Virus record (IMG/VR): IMGVR_UViG_3300019754_000010
Coordinates: 1 to 37,553 of that record
DNA length: 37,553 bases
From: a virus
Direction: 5' to 3' (one strand)
Shown in pieces: positions 5,164 to 37,553 of the stretch. A program made the position numbers and the translations under genes. Numbering within the stretch: position 1 is the stretch's first letter; the number at the start of each line of letters is the position of its first letter. The notes beneath the pieces are model-generated. The model was not told the origin of the DNA, searched no databases, and saw only the letters and a program-made list of their open reading frames with translations.

Positions 5164-5231
5164 AATATATATGTAAAGTTTTAAAATAATTGTAGTTCTT
5201 TGAAATGTGTTATTTACTTGACTACATAGTA

Positions 5232-5259
5232 AGTATATACTTTTTTTTATTTTTGTCAA
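5232..5259 (-). promoter_or_regulatory. Leftward early promoter, TTGACA-16-TATACT
   Basis: On the minus strand a consensus -35 TTGACA (5254-5259) is followed by a 16-base A-rich spacer and TATACT (5232-5237). It faces the replication arm and sits about 70 bases before the first leftward start codon. Its -35 and spacer closely match those at 2038-2065 and 34534-34561. Confidence 0.78.
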
Positions 5260-5302
5260 AACTTTTTTTAACTTTTTTTTTATTTTATTCTATTTTGGTA
5301 AG

Positions 5303-7984: not shown

Positions 7985-9934
7985 ATGTCAATAATCTGGT
8001 CAAAACAAGAATCTGATGCTATTATAGAGGGTATCAAAGCTGATCCTAGTGCACTAAGAATGAAAGTAGAAAACATGTATCAAGCATGATTAACACATGT
8101 ACAATTAAAAAGAAACAAGAAAAGAAACCAATTAAAAAAATTATTCCCTACCCCAGAAAAACTTTGAAAAATTTATTCAAGAGTTATCTGGAAATATATG
8201 CAACTATTCATGTCGATCAATACATTAGATTGAATGGATGTTTCATTTATATCAAGATGAACTGATATTAGAGCACAAGAAGCTTGAAATAATGCTAATA
8301 AAGTGGCTAAAAATGACTATGAAACAATGGATAAGTTTGATCTAGACACATTGTCATCATGGAATATTTGAATTACTTGAAATGCTGTAGAAGTATTTAC
8401 TTGATATGATGAAGTAGAAGACCAGCCAATAGCTTGTACTGTTGATCCACTTGCAGTAGTTCCAGATCCTCAAGACTGGAGTTCAAGAGAAGTAAAAAGA
8501 TTTATTTGATTTGAAGAAAGGTTTGAATTTTGAGAACTTAGAGCAGATGATGAAAAAAATGGTTGATCATTAATGAATACTCATTTAATAATGAAATGAG
8601 CTACATCTACAGAAGTAAATCTAAACAAACAAGCTAGAGATAGTTCTCAAGGTTATAATACAATGGTTTGAGATGATGAAATAGCTGATATTTTGACTGT
8701 ATTCATTAAATATAATTGAAGAAAATATTACACAAAATGGGCTAATAGTAGAACATTATTAATATCTATTACAGAAGTAGAGCCAAGAACCAAAGCTCAA
8801 AAGAAAGATATTTCTAGAGTTAAATTCCCAGTAATTGTAAAAAGAGCTAAACCAATTTTCTGATCATGGTTTGGTATATCTATATTTGATGAAACAGAAC
8901 AATATCAAGACAATGAATCAATCTTATTAAATCTTGAAATGATCCTGGCAAGAAAAAATGCCATGTGAGCTGATAGATATATAAACACAAAAAAGATTGA
9001 TATAAAATCAATGAATCAAAAGAAGCCATGAGGTAGAAATGTTCCAGTCAAACTAAAAGATGATGAGAATATGAATAATGCTGTATGGATGGAACCGTTA
9101 GAAACCAATTGACAAATGCCACAATTGATGAGGCAAACATTGAAGCAAGGACTACAAGAAGAAACTGGATTATCAAGTATTGCTTTTGGTGTTTCTCCAG
9201 AATGAAACCAAACAAAAGCAGAGATAAATTCACTTACAAAAAATATAAATCAATTACTTTCATATTCAAATACATTGATGATGAAAGAGGAAAAATTATG
9301 GTGGGAGCTATGGTATGAATATTATGTTTATAATCTACCATCATCAAGTAAAAAGTATGTTACATTGACAAAATGACAAGGTATTTCAGATAATTTTGAG
9401 TTTAAAAGATCAGATTTCTTACTTGATTACCCAGTTATAGTAAAAGTAGTAAGTAAAGCAGAAGAAGAAAATAAGAAAAATAAAAGATTTGCTAGAAGAT
9501 CAGTTATGATTTGAACTGTTTTAGCTAACTTAAAACAATGAACTCATGCTTTTAATGAATATATGAGAAATTATATGAGTGATGGATGATTTGAGAGAGA
9601 TGAATATATGCAATATTTTGACTATACACCATCAGAAACTAGAGCTTTACAATGATTAAATCTATTAAATGCTTTCCAAGAAAAGCCAAACTCTCCAGAA
9701 CAATGAGAAGATTATCAATCATTTATAAATATTTACTCTTTAGCTAAAGATTCTCCAGCTAAACAAGAAATTATTGATGAATATATGAATGCTTATATGT
9801 GAGAACAATTAAACAATCCAGCACCACAAGAAATGTGAAAAGTAGACAAAATGGGTCAAGCTCAAGCATGAAACATTGTAGCAAGTGAATTATCTGAGAA
9901 TAATAGTTCGGAAGCAGTCGGAGCAAATGTTTAA
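7985..9934 (+). CDS. Portal protein
   Basis: This 649-aa protein directly follows TerL and precedes scaffold and capsid genes, the standard place for the dodecameric portal. It contains a long helical N-terminus, a region with DPLAVVPDPQDW (near residue 158), and later ETGLSSIAFGVSPEGNQTKAE spread around residue 395, which matches the late helix and tunnel region of large podo/siphophage portals. The C-terminal 100 residues are Gln/Asn/Pro-rich. The length is at the upper end for portals. Identity rests mainly on position and overall pattern. Confidence 0.82.
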
Positions 9935-9986: not shown

Positions 9987-10065
9987 CCAATCACAAAAGC
10001 TTATATACTAGAAGCATCTACTTGTGATTGGGTGGGTGTTTCTACTATATAAGCTTTTATTTTTA
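9987..10065 (+). terminator. Interleaved pseudoknot/terminator after portal
   Basis: A long hairpin pairs 9995-10007 with 10046-10058 (13 bp), continues past one mismatch for 8-9 more pairs, and is followed by TTTTATTTTT. Its loop contains 10022-10031, which is complementary over 10 bases to 9987-9996 upstream. The two pairings are interleaved, so the RNA can form either a pseudoknot or two alternative folds. This looks like a terminator or attenuator between the portal gene and the Acb2-like gene. Confidence 0.62.
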
Positions 10066-10078
10066 ACTATATTTAAAG

Positions 10079-10267
10079 ATGTGATATCAATATATAAAAC
10101 CGAATGATGCTCAAGTTGTAAAAATGCAAGTATTTAGAGATAAATTTGAGGAATTAGACAAATTAATTCAAGAAAATGTTGATAATTCTAGAGGTAAAAG
10201 TTTATGCTTAACTAAATTAGAAGAAGCTTCTTTTTGGCTTAATAAATGAATAACTAATAATGATTAA
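10079..10267 (+). CDS. Acb2/Tad1-hairpin-like cyclic-nucleotide sponge
   Basis: This 62-aa protein has the features of the Acb2 family of small helical phage proteins: a helix with FRDKFEELDKLI, then a Ser-Arg turn and the C-terminal signature SLCLTKLEEASFWLNKGI (residues 42-59). Known Acb2 proteins form hexamers that bind cyclic oligonucleotides and so block CBASS and related signalling defence. I infer the same here from the signature. The gene sits alone between a strong RNA structure and another hairpin, inside the head operon, so it may be expressed separately from its neighbours. Confidence 0.75.
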
Positions 10268-10714: not shown

Positions 10715-10742
10715 TTGACAAAAAAAAGAAAAATGTTAATTT
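10715..10742 (+). promoter_or_regulatory. Possible late rightward promoter
   Basis: TTTTGACA followed by an A-rich spacer is close to the -35 and spacer of the leftward promoters, here facing the scaffold and capsid genes. The -10 is poor (TAATTT or nearby TATACG at non-ideal spacing), so the call is weak. Confidence 0.35.
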
Positions 10743-33350: not shown

Positions 33351-34250
33351 TTATTCAAAAGCAGAGTCTTTTTTTTCTGCTGGAGCTTCTTTAGCATCAG
33401 TTGTATCAATAACTTCTTCAACTTCTTTTTCAAGTTCTGCTTTTTTAGCATTTTCTCTAGCTATAGTTGTTGTTTTTGGTTCATCTACTGGAGCTTCTGC
33501 GAATATTTCATTTGCTTCTTCTTCACTAGCTGTTTCTTCATCATTAGCTTTTTCTTGTTCAGCTTGTTTTTCTTCTATTTCATTTTGAATGGCTTTTTCA
33601 TCTTCTTGTAAAGTTTTTGGAACTTCAATTCAAAAAGATTTCATTAAATCTTTATATTCTTGACTAGCTTTAACTCTTTCTAAATCCCAAGGTTTTAAAT
33701 ATTTTTTAGCTATATCATCCTCAAGAATATCTAGAAAATCATCTGGATCTTCCATTCAAAAATAGAAAGATTTAGTTTCTTGTTCATGGTAATTTACTTT
33801 TTTACTTTGTCATGATACAGAAGTAATAGTTTCATAATTTAAATCTTTACCTTTCATTTCAACATCAATAAAACATTTCATTCCAAGTAATTTGTCTAAA
33901 GAAAAATCTTTAATTTCTTTTACAGATTTTACATCACAAACAGCATTAATAACTTTTCAAAGTTTAGATTTATCTGAAATTACATCATTATAATTAGCTC
34001 AGATAATACCAATTTTTTCTTCAAATTCTCAAGTTAATTCTCATTTTTCAGCATCATATTTTTCTTGCTCTGCTTCAACCTCAAATAAGATTCTAATTTC
34101 TTCCATTGGTTTTGCTTCTTCTCATTCCTTAAATGATCTATATTCTGTTCATAATTCCATTACTCAAACTATAATTGCTGGATGTCATCAAGCTGGACAT
34201 TTAAAATATCAACCTCAACCACCCTCTTTATAACTTACTTTTTTTGGCAT
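33351..34250 (-). CDS. SSB-like protein with acidic tail, 299 aa
   Basis: The N-terminal 180 residues resemble a phage OB-fold family that binds ssDNA: PAGGHPAIIVGVMELGTEYR, then ILFEVE, then the lobe DFSLDKLLGMKC and ITSVSG. A typical YFGMEDPDDF segment follows. The last 95 residues are strongly acidic with Ala/Glu/Lys runs (EEKQAEQEKANDEETASEE) like SSB tails that recruit partners. The start codon lies at the end of the long structured leader, and the transcript probably starts near 34527. T4 gp32 controls its own synthesis through a leader structure, and that may also apply here. Confidence 0.65.
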
Positions 34251-34379
34251 AATATGTACATATTACTTAATAAAATATTTTTGGTTTTTATTTGTTCGCC
34301 CAAAACCTAAAAGCTAGTTTTATATATTTTTCTTTTACTTGAAGTCCAAGAGTTTTTAAATCTTTGCTTTGATTTTGTA

Positions 34380-34461
34380 GTTATATTCTACCCCTTATAT
34401 AACCTCTATCTTAAAGGATAAGATGACCAGCCGAGAGATTATACAGGGAGTAAAATATAAC
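34380..34461 (-). ncRNA. Strand-specific structured RNA element
   Basis: On the minus-strand RNA three stacked helices form. Helix 1 pairs 34461-34447 with 34394-34380 (15 bp). Helix 2 pairs 34443-34434 with 34407-34398 (10 bp) across a 3x3 internal loop. Helix 3 pairs 34424-34419 with 34413-34408 (6 bp) over an AAGGA-complement loop of five bases. A nine-base bulge (34425-34433) reads CGGCUGGUC. All three imperfect pairs are G-U when read from the minus strand and C-A mismatches from the plus strand. The element is likely a leader riboregulator or a small RNA. It is not a known class to me. Confidence 0.75.
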
Positions 34462-34533
34462 TTTTTAAGAAATTCTTTTATCAATTGCCATTTATTATAT
34501 TTGGCTGTTGTTTTATTTCTTGAACACATAGGC

Positions 34534-34561
34534 ATTATATGTTTTTTTATTTTTTTGTCAA
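34534..34561 (-). promoter_or_regulatory. Leftward consensus promoter, TTGACA-16-TATAAT
   Basis: The minus-strand -35 TTGACA (34556-34561) and -10 TATAAT (34534-34539) match consensus at all 12 positions with a 16-base A-rich spacer. The start would be near 34527, about 275 bases before the SSB-like gene. It lies right after the resolvase stop, so SSB-like and downstream genes can be transcribed separately. Confidence 0.85.
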
Positions 34562-36839: not shown

Positions 36840-37553
36840 TTATTTTTTTTCTGCTTCTTTTTCAAATTTTCACTCTGGAAAATGTCAGCATCATTTTACA
36901 GATTTTTCAATTCTATATCATCTTTCAGTTTTTCAATTTATTTTTAAAGATGTTATTTTATATCTTACAGATAAATTTGAATTAAAATATTGTATTTTAT
37001 ATCTATCATCATAATAAGCATCTTTTTCTCCCATATCTATTTGATACATATCTAATAAATAATTCCTTTCATGATTTGTAATTTTATTTATATCTGGATA
37101 TTTTTCTTCTACCCATTTGAAAAATAAATTTCAAACTGATTCAGATAAATATTCTAGATCTCTTTTATCTTCATTATCTAATGGTAAAATATTTTCTTTT
37201 GTTTTAATTTCTGGAAATTTATCTAATAACCAAGCTAATAAATTTTCTATATTTTCTTTTTTTTCAATTGCTCTTGCTATTTTTCTTCATCTTGCAAGAT
37301 CTATTGATTCTCAAGTTTTAATAATAGTCCATCTTCTGTTTCAACTATCTACAGAATCAAGCTGTACTGGTTTTGCTTCATTACTACTCATTATGAACCA
37401 TGCAATATTTTCAGCTCAAACAGCATCTTGTCATTTTTTTTCTATCATTATTTTTTCTGCCATAATGAAAGTTTTTAATTTTTGCATGTTCTTTTTTCAT
37501 TTGGCTGTACCATCTACAGATAATTCTTGAAATTCTACTATTAATTTTTGTCA
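36840..37553 (-). CDS. Primase-SF3 helicase, C-terminal part
   Basis: This is the end of the 769-aa protein begun at 1-1719. Bases 37431-37553 duplicate 1-123, so the unique part is 37430-36840 (196 codons plus TAA). It carries the SF3 motif-C region IAWFIMSSNEAKPVQLDS and the arginine-containing GNRRW, then a helical C-terminus and a basic, Cys/His-containing end (KGCGHFPEGK). The order with the Walker A of the left part is that of DUF5906-type helicases. Because the duplicated 123 bases equal 41 codons, the frame is kept even if the repeat is not removed. Confidence 0.85.
37431..37553. repeat. Terminal direct repeat, right copy
   Basis: This is an exact copy of bases 1-123. See the left copy for the reading that the genome is circular or circularly permuted, with a unique length of 37,430 bases. 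Confidence 0.95.

Follow-up and report, generated by a model that had tools for sequence, protein, structure and literature searches.

A conserved predicted RNA structure in front of the replication gene of three phages that translate TGA as glycine

Results

The locus and its gene

The window, i.e., the whole stretch of DNA that was analysed, is a phage record with a length of 37,553 bases. Its ends (1-123 and 37431-37553) are identical, and this 123-bp repeat indicates a closed or terminally redundant genome. TGA is translated as glycine; in nine genes it stands at 186 of the 261 glycine codons. Genetic code 25, to which this corresponds, is the code of the Absconditabacteria and Gracilibacteria (PMC10746230).

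The locus of interest comprises a minus-strand gene, a promoter, and a gap of 330 nt between them in which a folded RNA is encoded (Table 1). The gene had been described as SSB-like in the first-pass annotation, a name that fits it only loosely. Its product reached the family score of NCBIfam NF046043, "phage replication initiation protein, NGO0469 family" (75.1 bits, threshold 75 bits), and was thus placed in a replication family; in favor of the older name, a phage RIO-1 gene, retrieved when a distant homologue served as the query, carries the annotation of a putative ssDNA-binding protein, so that an SSB function is at most putative. NGO0469 itself is called a replication initiation protein or a primase by annotation only (PMC1931599). 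The window protein also matched PHROGs of unknown function. A Pfam search yielded no family, no relative was found among solved structures, an AlphaFold model built from three sequences was uninformative (pLDDT 39), and no phage in INPHARED matched the replication or the capsid protein of the window.

The perfect consensus promoter that had been claimed upstream of the RNA was indeed present, since TTGACA and TATAAT, 16 nt apart, match the consensus at 12 of 12 positions (34561..34534). It is one of three perfect promoter sites in the window. Its -35 region, TTTTGACAAAAA, recurs together with a following A/T tract, so that copies are found at 34561, 5259 and 2065 on the minus strand and at 10715 on the plus strand; the copy at 5206-5280 has 83% identity with the leader promoter. 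Judged by their sequence, these repeats are likely to be the early-promoter set of the phage. When genes of the window phage were inspected by eye, a clear Shine-Dalgarno sequence was seen upstream of none of their starts, and an A/T-rich motif like TTTTAAT..TAATAAC recurred about 15-25 nt 5' of their start codons.

Table 1. Features of the replication gene leader in the window (minus-strand motifs are given as read 5' to 3')
Feature	Position	Strand	Basis and remarks
Promoter TTGACA-16 nt-TATAAT	34534..34561	-	12/12 consensus; predicted transcript start ~34527
5' part of the leader, partly structured, contains CAGCC (34507-34503)	34463..34527	-	Fold prediction
Conserved leader RNA element	34354..34462	-	Match of covariance model R1
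P1 outer helix, 5' strand AGUUAUAUUUUACUCC, 16 bp with 34379-34394	34447..34462	-	Fold; three-phage comparison
Middle helix, 5' strand, 12 bp with 34396-34407	34434..34445	-	Fold; window only
9-nt bulge CGGCUGGUC	34425..34433	-	Fold
Terminal hairpin, 6 bp, loop UCCUU	34408..34424	-	Fold; counterpart of arm P3
P1 outer helix, 3' strand GGGGUAGAAUAUAACU, conserved GUAGAA, U-G wobble 34453-34388	34379..34394	-	Fold; comparison
Alternative hairpin GUAG-AAUAUAA-CUAC, would undo P1	34377..34391	-	Present in three phages
Replication protein gene, NGO0469 family (earlier "SSB-like")	33351..34250	-	NF046043; genetic code 25

Folding of the leader RNA

The RNA of the minus strand at 34462-34379 forms a real structure. 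Its 34 pairs have a minimum free energy of -36.5 kcal/mol, compared to a mean of -15.3 for shuffled sequences (z -7.9), and none of 200 shuffles folded as well. The plus strand of the same region reached -23.6 (z -3.3). When 110-nt windows on both strands of three genomes (the window phage and the relatives G008 and G009 described below) were scanned, the hairpin took rank 2 of 19,696.

The shape was largely as previously described. Three nested helices were found, with lengths of 16, 12 and 6 bp instead of the 15, 10 and 6 bp given before, and the proposed nine-base bulge was recovered as CGGCUGGUC at 34433-34425 of the minus strand. It had also been stated that every imperfect pair is a G-U wobble only in the minus-strand RNA. 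This is true for four of the five (34453-34388, 34449-34392, 34444-34397 and 34438-34403); the fifth, 34446 x 34395, is a 1x1 C-A mismatch in that RNA, and it is the plus strand alone in which it would form a G-U wobble.

The top fold of the scan was a hairpin of 13+16 bp on the plus strand of the window (9995-10058). Several of its pairs are G-U, it has a single 1x1 mismatch, and it is followed by a T-rich stretch. It lies between a portal-like gene that ends at 9934 and a gene at 10079, and is probably a terminator or a processing site. Two tandem strong AU hairpins within a predicted coding region (118-588) of G009, at L290:300-450, also ranked among the best folds.

Two relatives with the element

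Two relatives were recovered by a DNA pattern in which the glycines of a Walker A motif are written as TGA, namely G009 (IMGVR_UViG_3300028549_003126, L264/L290) and G008 (IMGVR_UViG_3300005095_000366, L291/L292). Both are code-25 phages, and the identity of their replication proteins with that of the window is 57% and 32%. Against NF046043 they scored 182.9 bits (G008) and 70.1 bits (G009), the latter slightly under the cut-off of 75. In both, a homologous RNA lies directly 5' of the replication gene (L291 7951-8065 in G008, L290 5349-5467 in G009). Other searches of viral and genome contigs did not extend the group. Single-protein scans with the Dda helicase, the terminase and the replication protein missed the relatives, a scan of viral contigs with a 14-mer of the bulge gave no relative among the matches listed, which were seemingly due to chance, and a TGA pattern for the terminase led to three code-25 phages that were too distant and did not share the element. 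A structural DNA pattern, and likewise a TGA pattern for the replication gene, revealed nothing beyond G008 and G009.

The surroundings of the element were compared as well. G008 has a promoter at the corresponding place (11 of 12 matches), and no clear consensus promoter was found in the G009 leader. A sense-strand terminator between the RNA and the replication gene was found in none of the three phages. The distance from P1 to the start codon is 129 nt in the window; in the relatives it is 67 and 66 nt. Thus the two do not overlap, and there is no sign that P1 directly sequesters the start site. The start region, 66-129 nt 3' of P1, is AU-rich and lacks a Shine-Dalgarno sequence. In G008 the leader additionally contains a tRNA gene (L291:7856-7949; Rfam tRNA, 49.3 bits), which adjoins the conserved RNA on its 5' side. 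Its anticodon arm is extended by about 12 extra bases, and ARAGORN misses the gene by default.

Conservation and covariation

Across the element, 74 of 111 aligned positions are identical between G008 and G009 (67%), which is more than in the replication gene behind it (51% of the nucleotides, 32% of the residues). Their common fold is a three-way junction with P1 of 15 bp and the arms P2 and P3 of 6 bp each. All 53 cells of this junction are paired, six pairs have changed on both sides, and none is broken; when the partners were moved by 1-3 columns as a control, 43-53% of the cells were paired.

P1 could be followed through all three phages. In each of the 45 cells the pair is intact, with pairs 2, 3, 10 and 15 changed on both sides and one further pair on one side only; as the alignment was made by hand and the arms were picked for matching, this count is favorable by construction. 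The pair counts were taken from the three-sequence P1 and from G008/G009, and the four-row alignment A4 was left out, as it includes the antisense strand of G008. Between the P1 arms and the window, 26 of 30 positions agree. No other site in the genome reached this value, nor did any of 2,000 shuffled versions of the leader. All five P1 wobbles in the three phages are U-G in the sense strand, and one P1 pair alternates between A-U and U-G, which pairs only in the RNA of that strand. Wobbles of one polarity together with compensatory changes indicate that the RNA of the sense strand has been under selection, and not a DNA palindrome.

The covariance model R1, which was built from G008 and G009 only and contains no row of the window, served as an independent test beside the hand-made alignment. 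It found the window element on the expected strand and at the expected place with a score of 29.6 bits and an E value of 0.012 (284 kb searched), the best match outside the training records, whereas the best score in 946 kb of unrelated phage DNA was 25.2 bits. The covariation that the first-pass annotation had proposed to look for in related phages was therefore found, i.e., two relatives carry the element and its outer helix covaries. Comparative sequence analysis shows that an RNA in which the long outer helix P1 encloses an unpaired strand containing G+C, together with one arm or two, is kept by compensatory change directly before the same replication gene in three divergent phages.

Differences between the window and its relatives

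The arm P2 of the relatives (CUUGAU...AUCAAG) is absent from the window, where the 12-bp middle helix takes its place; relative to the three-way junction of G008 and G009, the window element has, according to the alignment, lost one arm. The bulge CGGCUGGUC occupies the place of the strand J2/3 that joins P2 and P3 in the relatives (GUUGCCGAAGC, GUUCGCCACG). This junction strand contains G+C in all three phages, the genomes of which are AU-rich, but its sequence is not conserved.

Energy minimization alone favors one long hairpin in G009, and the three-way junction was assigned there because of the comparison with G008. In a 131-nt stretch of the G008 leader, the opposite strand folds slightly better than the sense strand (-33.4 versus -30.1).

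A pairing of the bulge with the 5' part of the leader was also considered. CAGCC of the window (34507-34503) is complementary to GGCUG in the bulge (-9.9 kcal/mol), and the fraction of shuffles with an equally good complementarity was 0.038 for the window and 0.016 for G008; it is absent in G009. The sequence of the 5' partner is not conserved, and the bulge does not have a pseudoknot partner in all three phages; the complementarity is a weak lead to a pseudoknot in the window and G008, and not a general feature.

A competing hairpin

In each of the three phages, a (U)CUACA that lies further downstream is able to pair with GUAGA in the 3' strand of P1. In both relatives the resulting hairpin is UGUAGA...UCUACA. 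Compared with the P1 fold, its predicted energy is less favorable by 13.5 kcal/mol in the window, 0.4 kcal/mol in G008 and 6.1 kcal/mol in G009. The GUAGA/UCUAC pairing may be a switch, or it may simply follow from sequence conservation.

Search for known RNA classes

The first-pass annotation knew of no matching riboswitch or phage RNA class, and none was found here, because no Rfam family matches. With Rfam 15, STAXI included, the window gave no match at the gathering threshold, the weak matches being implausible families far below it, and the G008 leader gave nothing beyond the adjacent tRNA. Two further candidates were set aside: a T-box, because the junction strand of the relatives contains no UGGN, and a mimic of a Cas12a repeat, because the arms are in the opposite order. 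A literature search on code-25 phages retrieved descriptions of genes and codes, and no RNA-level control element was found in it. With no Rfam match and with conservation by compensatory change in code-25 phages, the element appears to represent a new RNA family.

Discussion

The promoter lies directly before the RNA, no sense-strand terminator lies behind it, and P1 is 66-129 nt away from the start codon; the simplest explanation is therefore a 5' leader that acts in cis. We regard it as fairly probable that the element serves a small group of TGA-glycine phages as a structured leader RNA that acts in cis on their replication operon, and it probably controls the replication gene. Transcription from the adjacent promoter would include the RNA in the mRNA of the replication gene, and the RNA would act on the expression of the operon, most likely via translation or stability of that mRNA. 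The folded part would be recognized by a nuclease or by a protein, for which the replication protein is a candidate. As no clear Shine-Dalgarno sequence precedes the genes inspected, translation should rely on an accessible AU-rich start region, and a protein bound to the leader could cover this region. The conserved competing hairpin (GUAGA...UCUAC) may allow P1 to open. The most specific version of the cis-acting leader, autogenous repression by analogy with T4 gene 32, would agree with the anatomy in outline but is rather less likely than not. It is quite unlikely that the RNA is a bistable element of a new class, in which P1 and the competing hairpin would exclude each other and a protein or another signal, received via the GC-containing junction strand, would decide between them and so set the expression of the replication operon.

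The main rival to the cis-acting leader is a processing or stability element without regulation, the long helix of which would be cut by RNase III or would shield the 5' end of an early replication mRNA. The nearly continuous helix of 16+12+6 bp directly 3' of the promoter is as one would expect for it, and in G008 the tRNA-like gene ends where P1 starts, so that processing would expose P1 at the new end. A bare duplex, however, would have no need of the conserved GUAGAA, the wobble, the UCUACA tail and the junction strand, and we consider this rival unlikely. The tRNA-like gene in the G008 leader and the GC-containing unpaired strand that all three AU-rich genomes have in common would also suit a small RNA that is released from the leader and acts in trans with this strand as its seed. 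Yet the junction strand is not conserved, no sense-strand terminator was found before the gene, and the same gene follows the RNA in all three phages. The independent small RNA that had been suggested earlier is thereby weakened, and we judge it to be decidedly improbable.

Two further explanations do not involve a functional RNA. The location in the replication region would be in accordance with a DNA feature, i.e., an origin hairpin or an inverted repeat bound by a protein, but P1 wobbles that are U-G in one and the same strand in three phages, and a P1 pair that changes from A-U to U-G and so is a pair only in the RNA of that strand, make this very improbable. A chance hairpin without function might be suspected because hairpins are plentiful in AT-rich genomes and an equally strong one exists at 9995-10058; given the homology and covariation in two relatives, it is scarcely credible. 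The cis-acting leader is the best explanation. The element offers defined predicted pairs and a predicted switch, which are open to a reporter test without culture of the host.

RNase III sites in phage early mRNAs consist of a long imperfect helix in an early leader, and the window has such a helix in such a place; the conserved junction, the wobble and the tail of the element, however, suggest more than a duplex. The STAXI motif is a structured RNA with tandem pseudoknots that often lies near SSB and other DNA-handling genes (PMC2864571). The proximity of a structured RNA to a DNA-handling gene is common to both, but tandem pseudoknots set STAXI apart, and the window element has no Rfam match. 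In the translational operator of gene 32 of T4 and RB69, a pseudoknot of about 28 nt nucleates gp32 (PMC535899). The phages described here differ from this in that they have a 100-nt hairpin or a three-way junction and no pseudoknot that is conserved in all three, and in that the gene product belongs to the NGO0469 family and is not an SSB of the gp32 type. What they have in common with T4 gene 32 is that the leader RNA of a phage gene for ssDNA binding or replication is folded and that the start region behind the fold is unstructured and AU-rich; P1 of the window ends 129 nt upstream of the start codon, and the sequence between the two is AU-rich.
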